Below, one piece after another: positions 1 to 11,103 of a stretch of 40,563 bases of DNA (positions are counted from its first letter, which is position 1; every line of letters starts with the position of its first letter). A program made the position numbers and the translations under genes. The notes under the pieces were generated by a model. It did not search any database and was not told the DNA's origin. It saw only the letters and a program-made list of their open reading frames with translations. Source of the DNA: Actinomycetota bacterium (GTDB taxonomy: Bacteria; Actinomycetota; Acidimicrobiia; Acidimicrobiales; JAJPHE01); contig DAHUYE010000037.1 in NCBI GenBank assembly GCA_027315345.1, positions 1 through 40,563 of the forward strand, given 5' to 3'.

Positions 1-91
1 GCCTCTGGGCCTCGTCATAGCTGGCTCCGTCAACCACCGCCTCCAGGGCTTCCTCAAGAGCCCACGGCTCCCAACGACCAATCCTCGCCAT
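1..91 (-). CDS. Partial hypothetical protein (N-terminus only)
   Basis: The reading frame starts at an ATG at 91 and runs leftward off the window edge, so only about 30 residues are visible. They begin MARIGRWEPW and include an acidic stretch ending SYDEAQR. The start is well supported, because the minus strand carries AGGAGGTG a few bases upstream. The SYDEAQR end resembles the start of a helix-turn-helix of resolvase or transposase type, but too little is visible to assign a family. It is divergent to, and about 40 bp from, the broken end of a monooxygenase gene, so it may belong to whatever truncated that gene. Confidence 0.5.
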   Translation of the reverse strand, partial: MARIGRWEPWALEEALEAVVDGASYDEAQR

Positions 92-119
92 GCGACACCT
101 CCTGGTAGGGAGCTGTCGC
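92..119. repeat. Small inverted repeat GCGACA-N16-TGTCGC
   Basis: GCGACA (92-97) and TGTCGC (114-119) form a perfect 6-bp inverted repeat around the ribosome binding site of the leftward partial gene. It could be an operator, a hairpin in its 5' leader, or the end of an inserted element. Nothing distinguishes these. Confidence 0.3.
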
Positions 120-129
120 GGTCACCGGT

Positions 130-652
130 TGAGCCCAAGCACCGATTTCCGGACGGGGACCCGGCCTACCTCCGGAATACCTTCGGCGCCTGGCCGGATC
201 CCGTCCCTCTCCTCCTGCATGGGACGGCTCCTGACCAAGTAATCCGCAATGACATCGTGGACCGTTCTCCGATTGATCACTGGAGCCTCGGGCCCATAAC
301 CCTCCTGGGCGACGCCGTTCACCCGATGCGTCCCCACCTGGGCCAGGGGGGCTGCCAAGCGATCGAGGATGCCGTCTGCCTCGCCGGCTGTCTTGGCCGG
401 CTTCTTCAGCCAGCTACAGCCTTCCTCACCTACGAGAGGCGGCGCCGACGCCGTACACGGATGATGGTCCGGCGCTCGGTCAGGGCCCGAATCACCTATC
501 CATCGGGCGTGCGAACCCGGATCATTGACGGCGTGATTGCGGTGGTGCCTCGTCTCCCCGTCCTGCGCTTGGAGATGCAGCTAGGCGCAGCCAGGATGTT
601 CGGTAACAGGGCCGGCAGACGAGCCGTCGGTTTCTGGACCAACTCAGTCTGA
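130..652 (+). pseudogene. 5'-truncated FAD-dependent monooxygenase (PHBH fold)
   Basis: The open frame encodes the C-terminal third of a flavoprotein hydroxylase of the salicylate hydroxylase/zeaxanthin epoxidase type. The region from about 158 reads DPAYLRNTFGAWPDPV, then VIRNDIVDR, then the flavin-contacting LLGDAVHPMRPHLGQGG followed by AIEDA. The family is normally about 380-400 residues. The N-terminal Rossmann fold with its GxGxxG and the middle DG motif are absent, and the frame runs upstream into unrelated sequence with no credible start. A GTG at 257 could start a 131-residue product, but that would lack the FAD-binding fold. Truncation next to an oppositely oriented gene suggests an insertion or deletion breakpoint near 120-150. 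Confidence 0.8.
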
Positions 653-724
653 GGGCCAGGACGATGTCAGGGCCAGGCCGAGTCCCGATCCCGGGGTCGT
701 AGCCCCGTCGACAGGTCCGGATCC

Positions 725-1240
725 CTACCAGCCCACGGTGCCGTCGACGAGTTCGCGGATCAGATCCGCGTGGCCATTGTGGCGGGCGTACTCCTCGATC
801 ATGTGGTTGTAGATCCACCGCAGCGAGCAGGGCTGGCCCCGCCGGGTTCCGGTGTCGTCCAGACTGTGGCCATCCGCGGCTGCTCGGGCGGCATCGCACT
901 CGGACTGCCAGGCAGTCAGGTCCGCCTCCCAGTCCGCCCCGTCGAGGGGGATAAGTTCGCTGTCTTCTACGCCAGGATCGGCCCAGATATGTCCTATGTC
1001 CTCAGCGCCGAGGACCCTCCGGAACCAGTTGCGCTCGACTTCGGCCATGTGTCGCACCAGCCCATGGAGGGACAGCTTCGAGGTCCCTACTGGCCGCGCC
1101 TTTCGCTGTGCATCATCGAGGCCCTCGCACTTGAGCAGGAGGGTCATCCGGTGGAACTCGAGCCAAGACTCAAGCATGTTTCGCTCGGGCTGGACGAAGT
1201 CCGGTTCGCTCCGTCGGGCATCGATCAGATCCTCAACCAT
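725..1240 (-). CDS. DinB-family (DUF664) protein
   Basis: About 171 residues of the DinB/YfiT four-helix family, which includes actinobacterial mycothiol-dependent enzymes. The central segment LSLHGLVRHMAEVERNWF and the C-terminal WIYNHMIEEYARHNGHADL carry the family's three spaced metal-binding histidines (H in LVRHM, then HMIEEYARHNGH). This predicts a metal-dependent thiol transferase or detoxification hydrolase in the cytosol, with unknown substrate. I chose ATG 1240 (MVEDLID) because GGGAGG lies 5 nt upstream. The frame stays open to 1333, but the extra 31 residues do not resemble the family. The length fits the family (160-180 residues). Confidence 0.85.
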   Translation of the reverse strand: MVEDLIDARRSEPDFVQPERNMLESWLEFHRMTLLLKCEGLDDAQRKARPVGTSKLSLHGLVRHMAEVERNWFRRVLGAEDIGHIWADPGVEDSELIPLDGADWEADLTAWQSECDAARAAADGHSLDDTGTRRGQPCSLRWIYNHMIEEYARHNGHADLIRELVDGTVGW

Positions 1241-1340
1241 GGCAGCCTCCCGGTCGCCGTCCATTTGTTGGAGTAGTCCGATAGCGATATTGCCACCTTG
1301 GAATAGTCCAGGCTGGGCGGTGAGGAGCGACACCTATAAC

Positions 1341-1370
1341 GCCCGGTCCGGAGTTAGCGAGCGTCCGGGC
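1341..1370 (-). terminator. Possible stem-loop after the relaxase gene
   Basis: GCCCGG (1341-1346) pairs with CCGGGC (1365-1370) in the 192-bp gap between the relaxase stop and the DinB start. A second GC-rich patch at about 1381-1413 repeats GCGCGCTA twice and ends in the palindrome ACGCGCGT. No T-run follows, so a role as terminator is only suggested by position. No other gene is visible in 1241-1432. Confidence 0.25.
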
Positions 1371-1432
1371 TTTCGGCGATCGCGCGCTATGCCTACCGCG
1401 CGCTAACGCGCGTTCTATATGACGTCGCACAC

Positions 1433-4400
1433 TCACACGGTGATCTGCGGGCCGGGGGCTATCTCGGGTGTCGTGCGCACGTGGACCGCCGGCGTCGGTG
1501 CCGGCACCACATCCTGGGGGGCGGGAGGAGCATCAGGCCCGTCGGAAACGAGCGTGGGTGGGTCGGCTCGGAGATCCTCCCGTCGGGACAGCCGGGTGGA
1601 CAGCTGAGAACGGCCATGAACGAGGACCTCGGCCAACTCCTTCCCCTCGGCCCGAAGGCGCAGGACGTCGTCCTCCAGGCCGGCGAGGCTGGCGCCCTGG
1701 TCGATCCGGGCCTGGGCGGCGAGGCCGGACCAAGCTTCGGCTCGGCTGGCACCGGTGGCCAGTTCTGGGTGCTCGACGAGCAAGCCATCCAGCTCGTCCC
1801 GGGCCCGGAAGCGCGCCCGGCCCCGCAGTCCACCAGGGGACAGGGCCGAGCGCTCCAGGTCGGCCCGCAGGACGTCGATCCGCTCGGCCAAGCGGGCCTC
1901 GGCCCGAACGGTGGCAGCGGCGGCGACGATGAGGGGCTGTTGCCGGCGGTTGAGGGTCAGGGATGCCTCGGCGGCGGCCAGGGCGGCGGCCAACGCGGCT
2001 GCCTTGGCCTCGTGTCGGGACAGGACGGCCTCCATGGTCTCGACCAGGGCATCGGCATGGGCGGCTTCCTCCTCCCAACGCAGCCGGCTCCACGAGCCGG
2101 ATGGAGCGGCCACCAGTGCCTCGGCCCGAAGGGCCAGTTCCACCCGAGCCGCCTCGGCTCGGACCCGGGTCAGTCCATGGCGGGCCGACCAGGCCTCATA
2201 GCCCCGATGCGCCTCCTCCAGGTCGGCCACCTGGGCCCGGAGGTGCTCCTGACCGAGTTGTGCCCGCCCTGTCCTTGGCCCGTCCCCGGCCAGGATGGCC
2301 CGGCCCTCGTCCAGCTCCGCCTCCCGCAGCTGGGTCGAGAGATCAGCCAGGGCCACCGCCACCCGCGGCGGAGCCGTTTCGGACTTGGCCGCCTCGACCA
2401 TCAGGTTCAGCTCCTCGGTGGTCATCGAAGCCAACGACGCTGGTTCGGCTCTGCCCAGCGCGAGCGCGGCCCGATCCCACCAGGCCCGGGCGTCGACCCG
2501 GGCCGCCGGTGGCCGGGGCCCGAGGGGGTCGGTGCCATCGTCCCAGCCGAAGGCCTCCCGGTAGCCGGCTATGAGGCCGGCGCCGGCCGACCAGGGCCCC
2601 GCATCGCCCTCCGGGCGCGACCCCAGCTCGGCCGCCCAGGTCGGAGCATCGGTGGCCACCGTCTCGGCCAAGGCTGTCATGCGGGCATCCATGGCGCTGG
2701 CCACCTCGGCCATCACGGCGTCGAGGTCACCGCCGTAGGTCGGGGTGAGCTCGGCGAATGACGGTCCCAGCGCGACCCGGGCGGCCGACTCGGTCCGGCG
2801 CAGGCGCCAGTGCAACACAGCGGCGATGTCGCTGGCATCCTCCAATCCGCGGAGATGAGCGGCGTCCAGAAGGGCGGCACCGGCGTCCATCCCTGAGGCT
2901 TCGATGGCCCGCAGACGCGCCGCCAGGGCGCCCCAGGCCGGGGAGTCGACCATGTCCCGGGCGAAGGAGGGATCGACTCCTTCGGCCAGCACGTCGGCCC
3001 AGCGAGCCCGGCCGGCCTCGGCCAACAGGTCCCCCCAGATGGGGAAGAGCCGATCCAGTCCGACCCGGCGGCGCTCCTCCTCGGCGGCGGTGGCGAGGGC
3101 CGAGCGCGCCAGCGGATCGTCCTCCCGGGACAGCACGCCGGAGAGCACTTCCAGGGGGTCAGCTTCGGGGCCGTCGGCGTCGGCGCCTTCCGGACGCACT
3201 GTCGTGACGTAGGCGTAGTTGGCCGTCCTGCCTCGGGTGAGACCCACGTACAGACCGGCCCGGGAGGTGGCCGAAGTGACGAGGGAATGGCAGACGTCCA
3301 CCGTTTGGCCCTGTGAAGAATGAACGGTGCCGGCATATCCGAGCTGGGCCCAGTCGGCCAGGTAGGCGGCGTCGAGCTCCACTGTGTCATTCCCACCGAC
3401 CTGCCGGGCGGTCAGTCCACCGGTGCCGACGGCTGTCACCTCCCAGCGGTCCCGGTTGGCCACCCAAGAGCCCTCGGTGGTCGAGCGCCCCCGGTCGTTG
3501 CGTCGGGTGACGATCACATCCCCCACCCCGGCCACGTTGCCGTCGGCCAACCCAATCCTGACGGCGTCGTCCACCTTGCCCCGCTCCACCAACGCGGCGC
3601 GGAAGCGCTCGGACAGCACGGCGGCAGCCTCGTTGGTGTCGGCCAGCAGGAGCACCTCGAGCCCCCGGGCCCAGTCGGCCAGGGCGCCCTCCAAGGCGGC
3701 GCCTTCCATGTCCTCGGCGTCGCCACCGGTGATCCGGCCCCGCAGCTCGTAGTCCTCTAGTACCCGGACCTCTCCGGCCCGTAAGGCCAGGCTGGCCGCC
3801 GCCTCCCAGGGCGCCGAGAAGCGGCGGACCTCGCCCAGCTGGGCCGCCCCGGTGCGCTCCACCAGCATCCGGAAGACGCCGGAGGCATCGGGTGAATCGA
3901 GCTGGCGGTCGTCGCCCATCAGCACCAACTTGGCCCCGGCCGCGCTCACCAGCCCGACCAGGGAGTCGATGTCGGAGCGCGAGGCCATGGCCGCCTCGTC
4001 GAGTATCCACAGGTCGCCTGTGGATATCCCGTAGGCGGCGAACCAGGCCTCGTCGCGCTGGGAGTTGTCTCGCTGGGCGTGCTCCCAGATGACCTTGACC
4101 GTGTTGAGGGCCGGGATGCCGGCGGCCTGGCCCAGCACCCGGGCCGCCGTCTCCGATGGAGCCAGTCCGAGCACCCGCCCACCTCCGGTGCGCCAGGCCC
4201 GGGCCAGGGCGGCCATGGCGTAGGTCTTGCCCACCCCCGCTGGGCCGAGCACACACTGCGCCACCCGTCCCGAGCCCAGCACGTCGCGCACCACCAGGGA
4301 CTGGTCGAGTCCCAGTCCGGCCTCGGCCAGCACCCCTCCGGCCCGCGGGGACGTCACCTTGGGACCGTCGTTGCGCTGGGCGGCGGCCAGGATGCGCCTC

Positions 4401-5437
4401 TCGGCAGACAGAGCCCCGGTGGTGGTGTAGCGCTCCACACCGTGCTGGCGGTAGACGGAGTTTCCGTCGGCGGCCCGTCGCAGGCGCTCGGGGACACAGA
4501 AGGGTTCCGGCAGGGTGAGCCCGACCACGCCCAGCTCCCGCGCCCGGCTCTCGATGGCCGTGGTCACCAAGTCGTCGACCCGGGCCAAGAGGGCGTCGGG
4601 ATCGGTGCCGGCCGCGACGCTGAGCTGTCTGGTCACGACCCGGGCCAGGTCGTAGCGGGTCCAGGTGGAGTGGCTCTCCTCCAGTTCCACCAGAGCGTTG
4701 GCGACCACGACGTCGTCCTCGTCCGGCTGGGAGGGATGCAGCTCGGAGTCGTGGAAGAGCCGGTTGTCCACCGCCGCCATCCACACGTCCCGCAGCGTCG
4801 TGTCGAGGCGCTCCTTGGTCTCGGCCGACCACCGGGCCAGGGCCTCCTCGGTGGTCTCGGCGCCGTCCTTGGGCTGTCGGGTCTGGAGGGTGGCCCAGGC
4901 CGCCATCTGGGACCGGAGCCAGTCCGAGGGGGCATAGCCGTGGCCGGCCTCATAAGCCTCGGCCATCTCGCCCACCCGGGCGGTGATCTGTCCCCGTCGG
5001 GTGGAGAACAGCCTGCAGACCTCCTCGGGAACCCCCACGATCTCTCTGGCTCCGCCCTCCTTGCGCACCTCGTGGCGCACCCCGAGGGAGGCCTCCAGGG
5101 CCGCTTCGCGGACCCGGTCATACAGGGCCCCGGCCGAGGCTGCCACCCGGTAGATGGCCCGGGCATCCAGGCTCCGCCAGGCCCCGTCCGAACAACGCAC
5201 GCGGTTGAGAACGGCGTTGTGGGTATGTATCTGCACATCGCCCGAGCGCGACATGCGGTGGTCGAAGGAGGCCACCACCCAACCGGTGGTGTCCACCGAG
5301 CGGATGCCGGAATGTCCGGCCCGGGACCACGCCGCCTCCCGTTCCAGGTAGGCCAGGGCCGCGTCCACCCCGGCGTGATGGGCGGCCCAGATGGCCGCCC
5401 GGCCGGCCTCGTCGGCGGCCGCCCACAGCACGCTCAC
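1433..5437 (-). CDS. MobF/TraA-type relaxase-helicase, main part (frameshifted from its N-terminus)
   Basis: This 1334-residue frame is the bulk of a TrwC/TraA conjugative relaxase, which nicks and unwinds DNA at oriT during mobilization. It begins at SVLWAAADEAG, which in intact homologues follows the motif FDLT...PKSV. The HUH metal site is FDHRMSRSGDVQIHTHN (about residues 58-74). A RecD-like helicase follows, with Walker A GPAGVGKT (about 396-403), Walker B WILDEAAM (about 475) and the late motif VHSSQGQT. The C-terminal ~500 residues are an Ala/Glu/Arg-rich, probably coiled, tail. The catalytic tyrosine region lies in the adjoining frame 5445-5936. One extra base in a five-G run (5445-5449, plus strand) separates the two. 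The long open frames on the opposite strand are codon-usage shadows. Confidence 0.9.
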   Translation of the reverse strand: MSVLWAAADEAGRAAIWAAHHAGVDAALAYLEREAAWSRAGHSGIRSVDTTGWVVASFDHRMSRSGDVQIHTHNAVLNRVRCSDGAWRSLDARAIYRVAASAGALYDRVREAALEASLGVRHEVRKEGGAREIVGVPEEVCRLFSTRRGQITARVGEMAEAYEAGHGYAPSDWLRSQMAAWATLQTRQPKDGAETTEEALARWSAETKERLDTTLRDVWMAAVDNRLFHDSELHPSQPDEDDVVVANALVELEESHSTWTRYDLARVVTRQLSVAAGTDPDALLARVDDLVTTAIESRARELGVVGLTLPEPFCVPERLRRAADGNSVYRQHGVERYTTTGALSAERRILAAAQRNDGPKVTSPRAGGVLAEAGLGLDQSLVVRDVLGSGRVAQCVLGPAGVGKTYAMAALARAWRTGGGRVLGLAPSETAARVLGQAAGIPALNTVKVIWEHAQRDNSQRDEAWFAAYGISTGDLWILDEAAMASRSDIDSLVGLVSAAGAKLVLMGDDRQLDSPDASGVFRMLVERTGAAQLGEVRRFSAPWEAAASLALRAGEVRVLEDYELRGRITGGDAEDMEGAALEGALADWARGLEVLLLADTNEAAAVLSERFRAALVERGKVDDAVRIGLADGNVAGVGDVIVTRRNDRGRSTTEGSWVANRDRWEVTAVGTGGLTARQVGGNDTVELDAAYLADWAQLGYAGTVHSSQGQTVDVCHSLVTSATSRAGLYVGLTRGRTANYAYVTTVRPEGADADGPEADPLEVLSGVLSREDDPLARSALATAAEEERRRVGLDRLFPIWGDLLAEAGRARWADVLAEGVDPSFARDMVDSPAWGALAARLRAIEASGMDAGAALLDAAHLRGLEDASDIAAVLHWRLRRTESAARVALGPSFAELTPTYGGDLDAVMAEVASAMDARMTALAETVATDAPTWAAELGSRPEGDAGPWSAGAGLIAGYREAFGWDDGTDPLGPRPPAARVDARAWWDRAALALGRAEPASLASMTTEELNLMVEAAKSETAPPRVAVALADLSTQLREAELDEGRAILAGDGPRTGRAQLGQEHLRAQVADLEEAHRGYEAWSARHGLTRVRAEAARVELALRAEALVAAPSGSWSRLRWEEEAAHADALVETMEAVLSRHEAKAAALAAALAAAEASLTLNRRQQPLIVAAAATVRAEARLAERIDVLRADLERSALSPGGLRGRARFRARDELDGLLVEHPELATGASRAEAWSGLAAQARIDQGASLAGLEDDVLRLRAEGKELAEVLVHGRSQLSTRLSRREDLRADPPTLVSDGPDAPPAPQDVVPAPTPAVHVRTTPEIAPGPQITV

Positions 5438-5936
5438 GGATTTCGGGGGTTATGCCCGTCAGATCAAACCCGGCCACCGATCGGCGCTCGCCCCGCCGGC
5501 GCAGGAGGGCCTCGCGCTCGGCCCAGTCAGTCTCTGCCTGGGCCCGATAGACGACCTCTTCGGCCTCGAGTTCCACCGAACCCAGACCCTCGGCCACCAG
5601 GCCGGCCTCACGGGTGACCCAGTCCCGGCGGACCTTGGCCAGATGCGCCGACCGGGCTGCCTCGATGCGTTCGGCCAGCGGACGGAAGACCGAGGGCGGC
5701 CGGCCCAGCTCGACCGGTTCGCTGGGATGGAGCAGCAGGCCGAAGACCCGCTCCATCTGCTCGGGGGTCACCTCGCCGGCCAGTCCCAGCTCGGGGAAGG
5801 CGGCGCGACCGGCCCAGCGTCCGGGGGCTTCGCCCCGGGCTACGTCGGCCAGGTAGTAGTCGTCAGCGCCACCGGCCACGGCGTCGATGAGGTAGCGCCA
5901 CCCACCCCCGGCGAAGATCTTCCCGACAGAGAGCAT
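5118..5936 (-). CDS. N-terminal part of the MobF relaxase (frame broken near 5447)
   Basis: The first ~163 residues, encoded by 5936-5445, are the N-terminus of the TrwC/TraA relaxase domain. They start MLSVGKI, carry the expected tyrosine pair in GADDYYLADVARGEAPGRW, and end GFDLTGITP, the point where homologues continue PKSVSVLWA. That continuation is present in the +1 frame. Downstream of 5445 this frame reads Arg/Gly-rich nonsense to 5118. Removing one C from the run of five (minus strand) fuses the halves into a protein of about 1500 residues, normal for the family. The start is ATG 5936. An AGGAGG-like sequence lies 16 nt upstream, inside the 35-bp repeat, farther than usual. The break is either a real inactivating mutation, a base-calling error in a homopolymer, or less likely a programmed +1 slip on CCC. 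Confidence 0.75.
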   Translation of the reverse strand: MLSVGKIFAGGGWRYLIDAVAGGADDYYLADVARGEAPGRWAGRAAFPELGLAGEVTPEQMERVFGLLLHPSEPVELGRPPSVFRPLAERIEAARSAHLAKVRRDWVTREAGLVAEGLGSVELEAEEVVYRAQAETDWAEREALLRRRGERRSVAGFDLTGITPEIRERAVGGRRRGRPGGHLGRPSRRGGRGPGLPGTGGGVVPGRTFRHPLGGHHRLGGGLLRPPHVALGRCADTYPQRRSQPRALFGRGLAEPGCPGHLPGGSLGRGPV

Positions 5937-5947
5937 TCATGGCTCTA

Positions 5948-5982
5948 TCCGGACCTCCAGAGGGCCGATCGTCAAAAAACTT
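5948..5982 (-). promoter_or_regulatory. 35-bp inverted repeat, copy A, with 18-bp dyad (upstream of relaxase)
   Basis: Read on the minus strand, this is AAGTTTTTTGAC, GAT, then CGGCCCTCTGGAGGTCCGGA. It matches the plus-strand repeat at 6987-7021 at 33 of 35 positions. Its core CGG-N-CCTC-TG-GAGG-N-CCG is itself a dyad. It lies 12 bp upstream of the relaxase ATG in the same gene-relative orientation as copy B has to the excisionase gene. It may be a shared operator for transfer and excision. Alternatively, the two copies could be terminal repeats of a small ~1.07-kb mobile unit. Confidence 0.7.
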
Positions 5983-6092
5983 TCCGGAAAACTTCCTGGC
6001 CCGCCGGTGCCAACAGGCGGGACGCCGACCTCCTTCATCATCAGGAGATGCAGAGGTGTGCGGGATCCGGCCTTTGACTTTGGGTCTCTGGC

Positions 6093-6135
6093 CGCGCCCG
6101 GGAGCCGGCCCCCGCAGAGGCCGGAGTCGGGCGCG
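6093..6135. other. Nested GC-rich hairpin between relaxase and pRiA4b-like gene
   Basis: CGCGCCCG (6093-6100) pairs perfectly with CGGGCGCG (6128-6135). Inside it CCGGCC (6105-6110) pairs with GGCCGG (6119-6124) around an 8-nt loop. A smaller hairpin, CCCGCC/GGCGGG, sits at 6000-6021. A structured block beside a relaxase gene is where an oriT would be expected, but no nic consensus is recognizable. It could instead be an mRNA leader structure for the gene at 6165. Confidence 0.45.
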
Positions 6136-6164
6136 GGCTGAGCGCTTGATGGCGCCACCGGGGA

Positions 6165-6782
6165 ATGAGCCAGAGGCTCCAGCGGCATCCACCCAGGAGC
6201 TACCCGGCCCTACGCTCCAGCCTCGTGCCCAAGCCTCCTGGCCAGCCCGTCTTCCAGCTGCGGATCACGCTCCAGCACATCCACCCGCCGGTATGGCGTC
6301 GCCTCCTCGTGCCGGGCAGTGTCCGCCTCGACCGGCTGCACCGGATGATCCAGGCCGCCTTCGGCTGGGAGGATTACTACCTTCACGTCTTCCGGATCGG
6401 CGCTACCGAGATCGGCATGCAGGGCGAGGACGCTCCAGAGGAGGAGCTCGACGAGACGGCAGTAACCGTGCTGGCTGCCTTGGAGGGGATCCGGAGCTTT
6501 GACTACGAGTACGACTTCGGCGACTCCTGGGAGCACGAGGTCGTGGTGGAGGACTTCTGGCGGGCACCCCTCGGGCTCAAGTTCGGGGTCTGCATCGACG
6601 GCCAGAGGGCCTGCCCGCCCGAAGACGTCGGGGGCTACCCGGGCTACGAAGAATTCCTCGAGGCCGTCGCCGATCCCGAGCACGAGGAGCACGAGCGCTA
6701 CCTGACTTGGGCCGGCGGCTCCTTCGACCCGGCCGCGTTCGACCTGGCCCTGGCCAACGCCCGGCTTCAGAAGGCGCGCTGA
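6165..6782 (+). CDS. Plasmid pRiA4b ORF-3-like protein (IS1096 TnpR-like family)
   Basis: A 205-residue protein almost wholly covered by the pRiA4b ORF-3 domain. Signature stretches are LRITLQHIHPPVWRRLLVPG (residues ~32-51), LHRMIQAAFGWEDYYLHVF, and FDYEYDFGDSWEHEVVVEDF followed by CPPEDVGGYPGYEEFLEA. The family is common on plasmids and insertion elements and has no proven biochemical role. The glycine/acidic DYxYDFGDxWEH motif is its hallmark. ATG 6165 lacks a strong ribosome binding site, and a GTG near 6222 is an alternative start just before the domain. The gene sits alone between the divergent relaxase and excisionase-integrase operons, flanked by inverted repeats and big hairpins. It may therefore regulate the element or be a separate small insertion. 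Confidence 0.85.
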   Translation: MSQRLQRHPPRSYPALRSSLVPKPPGQPVFQLRITLQHIHPPVWRRLLVPGSVRLDRLHRMIQAAFGWEDYYLHVFRIGATEIGMQGEDAPEEELDETAVTVLAALEGIRSFDYEYDFGDSWEHEVVVEDFWRAPLGLKFGVCIDGQRACPPEDVGGYPGYEEFLEAVADPEHEEHERYLTWAGGSFDPAAFDLALANARLQKAR

Positions 6783-6793
6783 GCCGAGCACCA

Positions 6794-6857
6794 GGGGCGG
6801 TCAAGGTCCGGCGCCAGCCGGTCCCGTAGGGACGCCGCCGGCGACCTTGACGGCCCC
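6794..6857. other. Large extended hairpin (terminator, structured RNA or oriT candidate)
   Basis: GGGGCGGTCAAGGTC (6794-6808) pairs with GACCTTGACGGCCCC (6843-6857) with one mismatch over 15 bp. The interior folds further, ending in the perfect hairpin GTCCC-GTA-GGGAC. It begins 12 bp after the pRiA4b-like stop codon, which fits a terminator, but no T-tract follows on either side. Its size and its place in a mobilizable element's control region keep an origin-of-transfer role open. Confidence 0.55.
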
Positions 6858-6986
6858 GCCCGTGACTGCCTGGCCCCGGCCACCATGGAGCCAGCCCCGG
6901 CCCGGCGGCCGGGGCGTGGTTGCGGCGGTTCTACCCCGAGGGTCGTCGCTGGCGCTCGTACGGCCGTGGAAAACAACTTTTTCAAG

Positions 6987-7021
6987 AAGTTTTTTGACAA
7001 ACGGCCCTCTGGAGGTCCGGA
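6987..7021 (+). promoter_or_regulatory. 35-bp inverted repeat, copy B, with 18-bp dyad (upstream of excisionase)
   Basis: The sequence is AAGTTTTTTGAC, AAA, then CGGCCCTCTGGAGGTCCGGA. It is the mirror of 5948-5982 with two mismatches in the spacer. TTGACA (6994-6999) resembles a -35 box, but no good -10 follows at 17 bp. It ends 47 bp before the excisionase start. The flanking interior sequence is also partly similar in the two copies (AACTT/AAGTT runs), so the duplicated unit may be longer than 35 bp but eroded. Confidence 0.7.
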
Positions 7022-7068
7022 AAGGGAGTGGGAGGCAGCGGGTGCCGCCATAGGAGGGCTGGGCGACG

Positions 7069-7407
7069 GTGAGCAGTGAACCGAGATGGACCGAGCAGGA
7101 AGAACGGGAAGGTCGGGTCATCCCCCTTCCGACACCGGGCGACGATGTGGCTCCAGCCGCCTGGTCGGCAGGACGCCTCTTGGTGAGTCCGGAGATCGCC
7201 TCTGATCTGCTCTGTATCGGCCGGACCAAGCTCTACGAGCTGCTGGCCTCCGGGGACATAGAGTCCGTCCGGTTGGGCTCCTGTCGGCGGATCCCGATGC
7301 AGGCGCTGGAAGACTTCGTCAGCCGACTTCGCCGGTCCCGCCGGCCTCCAGGTGTCACAGCCGGCCGCGACGATTTCGGCGCGTCCGAGATCGGGGGTGG
7401 GGTATGA
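7069..7407 (+). CDS. Excisionase-family helix-turn-helix protein
   Basis: A 112-residue protein with a central MerR/excisionase-type winged HTH (HTH_17): LLVSPEIASDLLCIGRTKLY followed by ELLASGDIESVRLGSCRRIP. Such proteins bind near att sites and bias the integrase toward excision. The polar ~35-residue N-terminus is not conserved in the family. The GTG start at 7069 is preceded by AGGAGG 11 nt upstream. Its stop overlaps the integrase ATG by 4 bp (GTATGA), so the two are translationally coupled, the usual xis-int arrangement of actinobacterial integrative elements. The 35-bp dyad repeat lies just upstream. Confidence 0.85.
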   Translation: MSSEPRWTEQEEREGRVIPLPTPGDDVAPAAWSAGRLLVSPEIASDLLCIGRTKLYELLASGDIESVRLGSCRRIPMQALEDFVSRLRRSRRPPGVTAGRDDFGASEIGGGV

Positions 7408-8669
7408 GCATCAGCCGTAGACAGACGGCCACCGGGTGGGCCTACGACGTCCGCCTGCGCCGGCCCGACGGCCGGCAGTACAAGCGGTCCTTCCCGACCA
7501 AGAAGGCGGCAGTCGAGTTCGAGGCGGCCGAGCGCCTGGCTGTCCGGGCCGGGGAGTGGCTCGACCCCGCGGCGGGCCAGGTCAGCCTCAAGGAGTACTC
7601 GGGTGCCTGGTTGGCCCAGCGCGGCGACCTCCGGCCCCGCACGGTCGACCTGTACCGGTGGCTGCTGGCCAAGCACATCTGGCCCGGTCTCGGCCAGCGC
7701 CAGCTCGGTGAGATCAGGACGACGGAGGTGAGGGAGTGGCGGGCCGACCTCATGGCCGGCGGTCTCGGATCGAGCACGGTGGCCAAGGCCTACCGGCTGC
7801 TGCGCACCATCCTGGGCACCGCCGTCGAGGACGGTTGCATCTCGAAAAACCCCTGCGCCATACGGGGCGCCGGTATAGAGCGGACGCCGGAACGACCGGT
7901 GGCCACCCTGGAACAGGTCTACGCCCTGGCCGGGGCGGTCCCTGTGAGGAACCAGGCCCTGGTCCTCCTGGCCGCCTTCTCCGGGATGCGGCTAGGCGAG
8001 CTTCTCGCGCTCCAACGGGAGCGGATCGACTTGGACGCTGGCGTCGTCCACGTCACCGAATCCCAGCACGAGTTGGTCGACCGCCGCATCGTTACCGGTC
8101 CCCCGAAGACCGAGGCGGGACGGCGTACGGTCAGCATCCCTCCGCACCTCTTGCCGGTCCTGGCCGAGCACTTGAACCGTTGGGTAGGTCCTGAGCCAGA
8201 CGCCCTCGTCTTCACCGGGGACAAGGGCGGCTGGCTGCGGCGCAGCCAGTGGAACTCACGATGGCGCCAGGCCCGACAGAAGGTGGGCTTGCCCCACCTC
8301 CATTTTCACGACTTGCGCCATACCGGCAACACGTTGGCCGCGGCTACCGGTGCTTCCACCAAGGAGCTTATGAGCCGTCTGGGACATGCGTCCGCCCAGG
8401 CCGCGCTGCGCTATCAGCACGCAACGCGTGAGCGGGATCAGGCCATCGCTGACGCTCTCTCCGAGATGGTGAATGAGGCCCTCGGACAGCCACGAACGGC
8501 GCCGAACGACCACGGATGCGCCATAAATGCGCCATGTGCGCCATCTGAAGGCCCAAACGAGACCTCCCGCCGAGGGCAAAAAGTGCCTCTGAGCAGGGCT
8601 TCTACCGAGAGCGGGCGACGAGAATCGAACTCGCGTTCTCAGCTTGGGAAGCTGATGTTCTGCCTCTGA
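7404..8669 (+). CDS. Tyrosine recombinase/phage-type integrase
   Basis: A 421-residue tyrosine recombinase. It has an N-terminal arm-binding domain (WAYDVRLRRPDGRQYKRSF), a SAM-like core-binding domain (about 62-155), and a catalytic domain with R in FSGMRLGELLAL (about 196), HDLRHT (about 302), LGH, and the nucleophilic tyrosine in AALRYQHATRERD (about 336). All catalytic positions are intact. The last ~25 codons run into the tRNA-Gly gene on the other strand, so the C-terminal SQLGKLMFCL is a translation of tRNA sequence. This is typical when attP abuts int. The protein should recombine at the tRNA anticodon-loop region, using the 37-bp repeat as core. Confidence 0.93.
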   Translation: MSISRRQTATGWAYDVRLRRPDGRQYKRSFPTKKAAVEFEAAERLAVRAGEWLDPAAGQVSLKEYSGAWLAQRGDLRPRTVDLYRWLLAKHIWPGLGQRQLGEIRTTEVREWRADLMAGGLGSSTVAKAYRLLRTILGTAVEDGCISKNPCAIRGAGIERTPERPVATLEQVYALAGAVPVRNQALVLLAAFSGMRLGELLALQRERIDLDAGVVHVTESQHELVDRRIVTGPPKTEAGRRTVSIPPHLLPVLAEHLNRWVGPEPDALVFTGDKGGWLRRSQWNSRWRQARQKVGLPHLHFHDLRHTGNTLAAATGASTKELMSRLGHASAQAALRYQHATRERDQAIADALSEMVNEALGQPRTAPNDHGCAINAPCAPSEGPNETSRRGQKVPLSRASTESGRRESNSRSQLGKLMFCL

Positions 8670-8680
8670 ACTACGCCCGC
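8610..8680 (-). tRNA. tRNA-Gly (anticodon CCC)
   Basis: On the minus strand the 71-nt sequence folds as a complete tRNA. The acceptor is GCGGGCG/CGCCCGC. The D-arm is GTTC/GAAC. The anticodon stem TCAGC/GCTGA has the loop TTCCCAA, giving anticodon CCC. The T-arm is GCGAG/CTCGT with loop TTCGATT, and the discriminator is T. No CCA is encoded. The 3' half faces the integrase gene, whose last codons overlap it. The 5' half (8644-8680) is duplicated at 11067-11103, marking this gene as the integration site. Confidence 0.95.
8644..8680. repeat. att core, copy 1 (37-bp direct repeat in tRNA-Gly)
   Basis: These 37 bp are identical to 11067-11103 in the same orientation. Identity starts at the edge of the tRNA anticodon loop and stops exactly at the tRNA 5' end. 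This is the expected mark of an element that carries its own copy of a tRNA half and rebuilds the gene on insertion. The 2.4 kb between the copies could in principle excise as a circle. Confidence 0.85.
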
Positions 8681-11066: not shown

Positions 11067-11103
11067 TTGGGAAGCTGATGTTCTGCCTCTGAACTACGCC
11101 CGC
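11067..11103. repeat. att core, copy 2 (tRNA-Gly 5'-half duplicate)
   Basis: A perfect 37-bp copy of 8644-8680. Here the tRNA half is not followed by a matching 3' half, so it is not a functional tRNA. It marks the far end of the bracketed 2.4-kb unit. Everything to its right looks chromosomal. Confidence 0.85.

Follow-up and report, generated by a model that had tools for sequence, protein, structure and literature searches.

A candidate regulatory site shared by the relaxase and excisionase operons of an integrative mobilizable element in Acidimicrobiia

The window, the whole 40,563-nt stretch of DNA analyzed here, carries two near-identical sites, one in front of a TrwC/MOBF relaxase gene and one in front of an excisionase (xis)-integrase operon. 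The site is repeated, confined to ~37 nt, conserved across different xis-int modules, held at a fixed distance from the relaxase start and matched by an independent pair in another element. We consider it reasonably probable that this is a cis-regulatory site common to the relaxase and xis-int genes and bound by one element protein, most likely Xis.

Results

Two copies of one site precede divergent genes

A sequence-only reading of this DNA had pointed to 35-bp copies at 5948-5982 (minus strand) and 6987-7021 (plus strand) with 33 of 35 bases in agreement. Coordinates, orientation and agreement were all confirmed, and no match is expected for such a repeat in shuffles. As was also claimed, the copies precede two divergent genes, each with the same orientation relative to the gene downstream of it. 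The sole differences are GAT versus AAA after TTTTTTGAC. Similarity reaches 50-nt arms at 84%, and the sharply conserved block spans ~37 nt (5945-5981 and 6988-7024). There is no third comparable site in the window, where a weight matrix made from the sites scored the best segment at 60.1 and the next at 2.2, a gap of nearly 60 bits. The sites and the features around them are as follows.

1433 to 5936, minus strand: TrwC/MOBF relaxase-helicase, in two frames (5118-5936 and 1433-5437)
5945 to 5981, minus strand: relaxase-side site, AGTTTTTTGACGATCGGCCCTCTGGAGGTCCGGATAG, its first base 45 nt from the relaxase ATG (5936)
5982 to 5996, minus strand: AT-rich flank, TTTTCCGGAA, adjoining the relaxase-side T-run
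6033 to 6060, minus strand: putative oriT, CACACCTCTGCATC-TCCT-GATG, 122 nt before the relaxase start and separate from the repeated sites
6165 to 6782, plus strand: pRiA4b ORF-3-like gene (PF07929; 2i1s), between the two sites
6794 to 6925, plus strand: two successive hairpin-forming repeats, between the PRiA4 gene and the xis-side site
6973 to 6987, plus strand: AT-rich flank, ACAACTTTTTCAAG, adjoining the xis-side T-run
6988 to 7024, plus strand: excisionase-side site, AGTTTTTTGACAAACGGCCCTCTGGAGGTCCGGAAAG, ~45 nt 5′ of the xis GTG (7069)
7069 to 7407, plus strand: excisionase-like winged-HTH gene (HTH_17)
7404 to 8669, plus strand: tyrosine integrase
8609 to 8680, minus strand: tRNA-Gly(CCC), overlapping the 3′ end of the integrase gene

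Each site is built of an AT-rich T-run, TTGAC and then a GC-rich part that would serve in recognition. Across the element genes (1433-8600, 71% GC), the flank ACAACTTTTTCAAG plus T-run is the most AT-rich 24-nt spot, and TTTTCCGGAA plus T-run is the second, a feature that the sequence-only reading had passed over. A scan with the sigma-70 consensus found no promoter. Read by eye, TTGAC(A/G) is followed after a gap of 19 nt by GGATAG, which ends 8 nt 5′ of the relaxase ATG; this spacing is only suggestive, but would suit a weak, regulated, leaderless promoter.

Shared control had originally been ascribed to a dyad, CGG-N-CCTC-N2-GAGG-N-CCG, that could bind a dimer. The dyad is literally present in both window copies, but it is statistically ordinary (p of ~0.11-0.15 relative to shuffles and of 0.33 relative to random segments of the window) and is missing from two homologous xis-side sites, those of C88 and C19 described below. 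A palindromic operator for a symmetric, MerR-like dimer was discarded on these grounds.

The carrier is a tRNA-targeting element with a MOBF relaxase

The window comes from a 3.84-Mb draft genome, and its element is referred to as C90. It combines an integrase at a tRNA gene, a relaxase and a putative oriT, as a tRNA-targeting integrative mobilizable element with a MOBF relaxase does. The tRNA-Gly(CCC) gene is the probable attachment site; its 3′ half has an exact 42-nt copy at C15:4811-4852, and the element therefore probably spans two contigs. Among the ORFs of window positions 1-8680, no T4SS/T4CP or FtsK-type transfer or replication genes were recognized by eye; the element probably continues on another contig. 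The tRNA was the sole match in an Rfam search, and only the PRiA4 gene matched the plasmid and phage collections, in plasmids. A +1 frameshift, due to either mutation or assembly error, splits the relaxase near 5437-5480, at the motif FDLT(F)SPPKSVSVLW, a region through which an intact relative, the C10 relaxase, reads.

The hairpin motif at 6033-6060 is likely the oriT. It is identical in C88, and CACNCTKGCA with (mostly) a short inverted repeat precedes many MOBF relaxases of the order, typically 40-125 nt from the start; the arms that follow CACNCTKGCA differ between genomes and are mostly self-complementary.

Two other repeats were observed in the window. The 5′ half of tRNA-Gly is repeated directly over 37 bp (8644-8680 and 11067-11103) on either side of 2.4 kb that encode an amidase and a toxin-antitoxin pair; this tRNA may have received a second integration, of which the repeat would be a trace. 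The double hairpin has the conserved form GGTCAAGG...GGTCCCGNAGGGACGCCG...CCTTGAC, followed by another GC hairpin, whose sequence varies, and in most copies by TGGTAGC. It has five copies in this genome (window 6794-6925, C88:13792-13860, C19:62228-62296, C21:6049-6109 and C6:973-1028), three of them just upstream of xis-side sites, and, outside this genome, one match among 298 genomes of the order (G038:C26). It has no Rfam entry; a structured RNA and a REP-like repeat are both possible.

The site recurs in front of different xis-int modules

C88 has the same layout as C90, with an IS21-like insertion interrupting its relaxase. Over 37 nt the relaxase-side sites of the two are identical, and the xis-side site of C88 agrees at 27-28 of 37 positions; since the one has diverged and the other is unchanged, coupling in C88 may be lost. 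Alignment of C90 with C88 yielded three separate conserved islands, namely, the relaxase-side site, the hairpin motif ~50 nt further on and the xis-side site, and the islands at both sites stand in otherwise unalignable DNA. C19 is a relic near tRNA-Phe, adjoining a truncated ssb gene, that consists of an integrase, xis and the site and has neither a PRiA4 gene nor a relaxase. The xis-side site thus heads a different xis-int module in each of C90, C88 and C19, with integrases that differ and with tRNA-Gly, -Pro and -Phe as the respective targets. The other xis-like genes of the genome (C33, C54, C92 and C62) are without the site.

Identity is 73-100% inside the 37 nt and falls to 15-53% in most flanks; only in the orthologous relaxase pair of C90 and C88 does conservation run on into the gene. 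The five strong sites follow the pattern A.TTTTTTGAC....GG...TC..G.GGTCCGGA.AG, with the invariant core TTTTTTGAC-N4-GG-N3-TC-N2-G-N-GGTCCGGA.

C75 (2532-2719, L011) carries the 3′ part of the relaxase from where the C88 relaxase is cut, with inverted IS ends TTATGCCGAGTAG / CTACTCGGCATAA, so that C75 and C88 are probably one element. Past the relaxase 3′ end, C75 holds a degraded site (2632-2659) and an oriT-like sequence.

Diverged relaxases and an independent pair

With three relaxases that are 62% (C10), 60% (C89) and 56% (G233) identical to that of the window, the best matrix match fell 44, 43 and 43 nt before the start codon, respectively, compared to 45 nt in the window (shuffle p of 0.002, <0.0003 and 0.001). 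These matches are weaker than the C90, C88 and C19 sites. G233 is an Acidiferrimicrobium, another genus of the same order. More distant MOBF relaxases gave no site match with the weight matrix.

C10 has a pair of its own, GTCACGGGGATTTTTTTCAATCTGG / GTCAGGGGGATCTTTTTCAATCCGG, which agree at 22 of 25 positions. The second site lies ~3 kb from the relaxase-side site on the other strand, is the best match in 19 kb (reached in 0 of 300 shuffles) and stands upstream of a 63-codon excisionase-like HTH gene with a match to phrog_66 (excisionase and transcriptional regulator; E of 2.6e-6). No PRiA4 gene lies between the paired C10 sites. Although different from the C90 pair, the C10 sites retain the arrangement of a T-run, GG a few nucleotides later and ~40 nt to the relaxase start. 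One motif thus precedes both the excision and the transfer genes of a single element in C90 (33/35) and again in C10 (22/25), and the likeness is greater within each element than between the two, as a binding protein specific to each element would predict. C89 carries a site on the relaxase side; a partner was sought before its HTH gene and not found.

A pattern scan of 84,980 genomes gave no match, one match in IMG/VR lay inside a phage-like coding gene (L062) and was judged to be chance, and among 148 genomes of the order the site was found in the window's own genome only. A search for relatives of the relaxase in genome_contigs returned one, from Acidiferrimicrobium, and the viral contigs returned none. 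Nearly all site copies come from one draft genome and one relative, and several of the elements are decayed. In the literature searched, no regulatory site was described for the MOBF elements of Acidimicrobiia, and a 2011 survey found the AICE class that it defined absent from Acidimicrobiia (PMC3218068).

Xis is the best candidate regulator

Xis matches HTH_17 (PF12728) above the cut-off. A sequence search against the PDB gave no hit, and fold comparison with an AlphaFold model that is good only for residues ~40-90 returned Pukovnik Xis (4j2n; Z of 8.5, rmsd of 1.3 over 52 residues) and RdfS and BldC (Z of 7.5). From its place next to int, Xis would stimulate excision by the linked integrase. 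We infer that this BldC/RdfS-type winged-HTH protein is the best candidate regulator, because it has the HTH_17 fold of Pukovnik Xis, RdfS and BldC, of which RdfS and BldC regulate transcription, and because it is an element-encoded DNA-binding protein that accompanies the strong xis-side sites. The pRiA4b ORF-3-like protein had been named alongside Xis as an obvious candidate. It is an unlikely one, since C10 and C19 carry sites without a PRiA4 gene; the only two PRiA4 genes in the genome are those in C90 and C88.

Discussion

In our proposal, an integrative mobilizable element carries one cis-regulatory site of its own in two copies, the first at the relaxase promoter and the second at that of the xis-int operon. 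A single element-encoded DNA-binding protein, most likely Xis, would bind both sites, and this binding would switch excision and DNA processing for transfer together. The sites are confined, AT-rich, at a fixed distance, kept across integrase modules and matched within elements, which argues for promoter-proximal operators of one element-specific regulator; the roles of promoter or operator, the binding of both copies by one protein and the identity of that protein as Xis are what we infer from these features. The earlier idea of one regulator acting on both relaxase and excisionase is upheld insofar as the shared site is backed by conservation across elements and by the C10 pair, but its palindromic basis fails. 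Gene conversion could account for part of the match within an element, but it leaves unaccounted for the position and orientation of the site before xis and relaxase genes in unrelated modules. The comparisons point to a functional cis-element that would be a variant of known ICE co-regulation.

A second element in the same genome follows this design with a site version of its own, so one switch probably governs both exit from the chromosome and cell-to-cell transfer. Excision without mobilization, or the reverse, wastes or loses the element, and a shared site would be a minimal solution with one protein. A further suggestion, which we put forward tentatively, is that co-resident elements each have a private two-promoter switch, in which the site pair and excisionase co-diverge, the excisionase is the transcription factor for the relaxase and neighbors do not cross-activate. 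Co-resident elements whose sites are matched within and different between them make this idea directly testable, and would show how cross-talk is avoided.

Several other readings of the pair were weighed. The same two promoters might answer to a trans factor other than Xis, whether a host regulator, an alternative sigma factor or an element gene outside the window. We hold this to be unlikely, though it is the most serious competitor: a host-read promoter would be in keeping with the -35-like TTGAC and with the constant distance to the relaxase start, and the C90 element probably extends past the window, but a single host factor is not favored by C90-type and C10-type pairs that differ within one genome. 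It is more doubtful still that the site before the relaxase serves oriT as an accessory, providing the relaxosome with an AT-rich bend, and that the xis-side copy is a duplicate of little function. That site does lie ~50 nt from the putative oriT hairpin, and the degraded C75 copy (2632-2659) also adjoins an oriT-like sequence; however, the probable oriT falls outside the repeated sites, which weakens this reading, the conserved xis-side sites of C90, C88, C19 and C10 do not adjoin an oriT, and where the oriT motif precedes other MOBF relaxases the site is mostly lacking.

We give little credence to the idea that translation of relaxase and xis is controlled through a short leader peptide, encoded in the frame TTG-ACN-xxx-GGx...GTC-CGG. 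All five strong copies keep this frame open and the TGA of the relaxase copy abuts the relaxase ATG, but in TTTTTTGAC and GGTCCGGA it is the third codon positions that never vary and the first and second that do, opposite to what selection on a peptide would leave, and the C10 and C89 versions break the relation of the frame to the start codon. Least credible is the alternative raised in the sequence-only reading itself, that the copies bound a 1.07-kb mobile unit as its terminal inverted repeats, with the pRiA4b-like gene as cargo. The inverted arrangement around one gene would suit such a unit, but comparison of the elements revealed both single sites (C19) and a pair with no PRiA4 gene (C10), so that the sites occur without the unit and the transposon reading fails. 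Moreover, the PRiA4 gene is found only inside two related elements, C90 and C88, the C88 xis-side end resembles its supposed partner at only 27 of 37 positions, and there is no target duplication.

Set against these alternatives, common control of relaxase and xis-int by an element protein has parallels in known systems. RdfS of ICEMlSymR7A, like the window Xis an HTH_17-type excisionase, binds its own promoter and attP, its operon is shared with transfer genes, and it couples excision to transfer gene expression (PMC11963761). It differs in that rdfS stands at the head of the transfer operon, no consensus motif exists for RdfS and the activator is FseA (PMC11963761), whereas the window has two separate divergent promoters with a near-identical site. 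The promoters of ICEclc have a common 27-bp motif (PMC9286271), and as in the window one motif is common to promoters of excision and transfer; ICEclc differs in being a proteobacterial ICE with eight such promoters and the activator BisDC (PMC9286271). BldC of Streptomyces shares the fold of the candidate regulator and requires an AT-rich block with a C 4 bp further on (PMC5859096), and the AT-rich block and GC part of the window sites would suit head-to-tail binding. Direct repeats of its consensus, AATTNNNN(C), are not clearly present at the window sites, however, and BldC, in contrast to the window Xis, is a chromosomal developmental regulator (PMC5859096).
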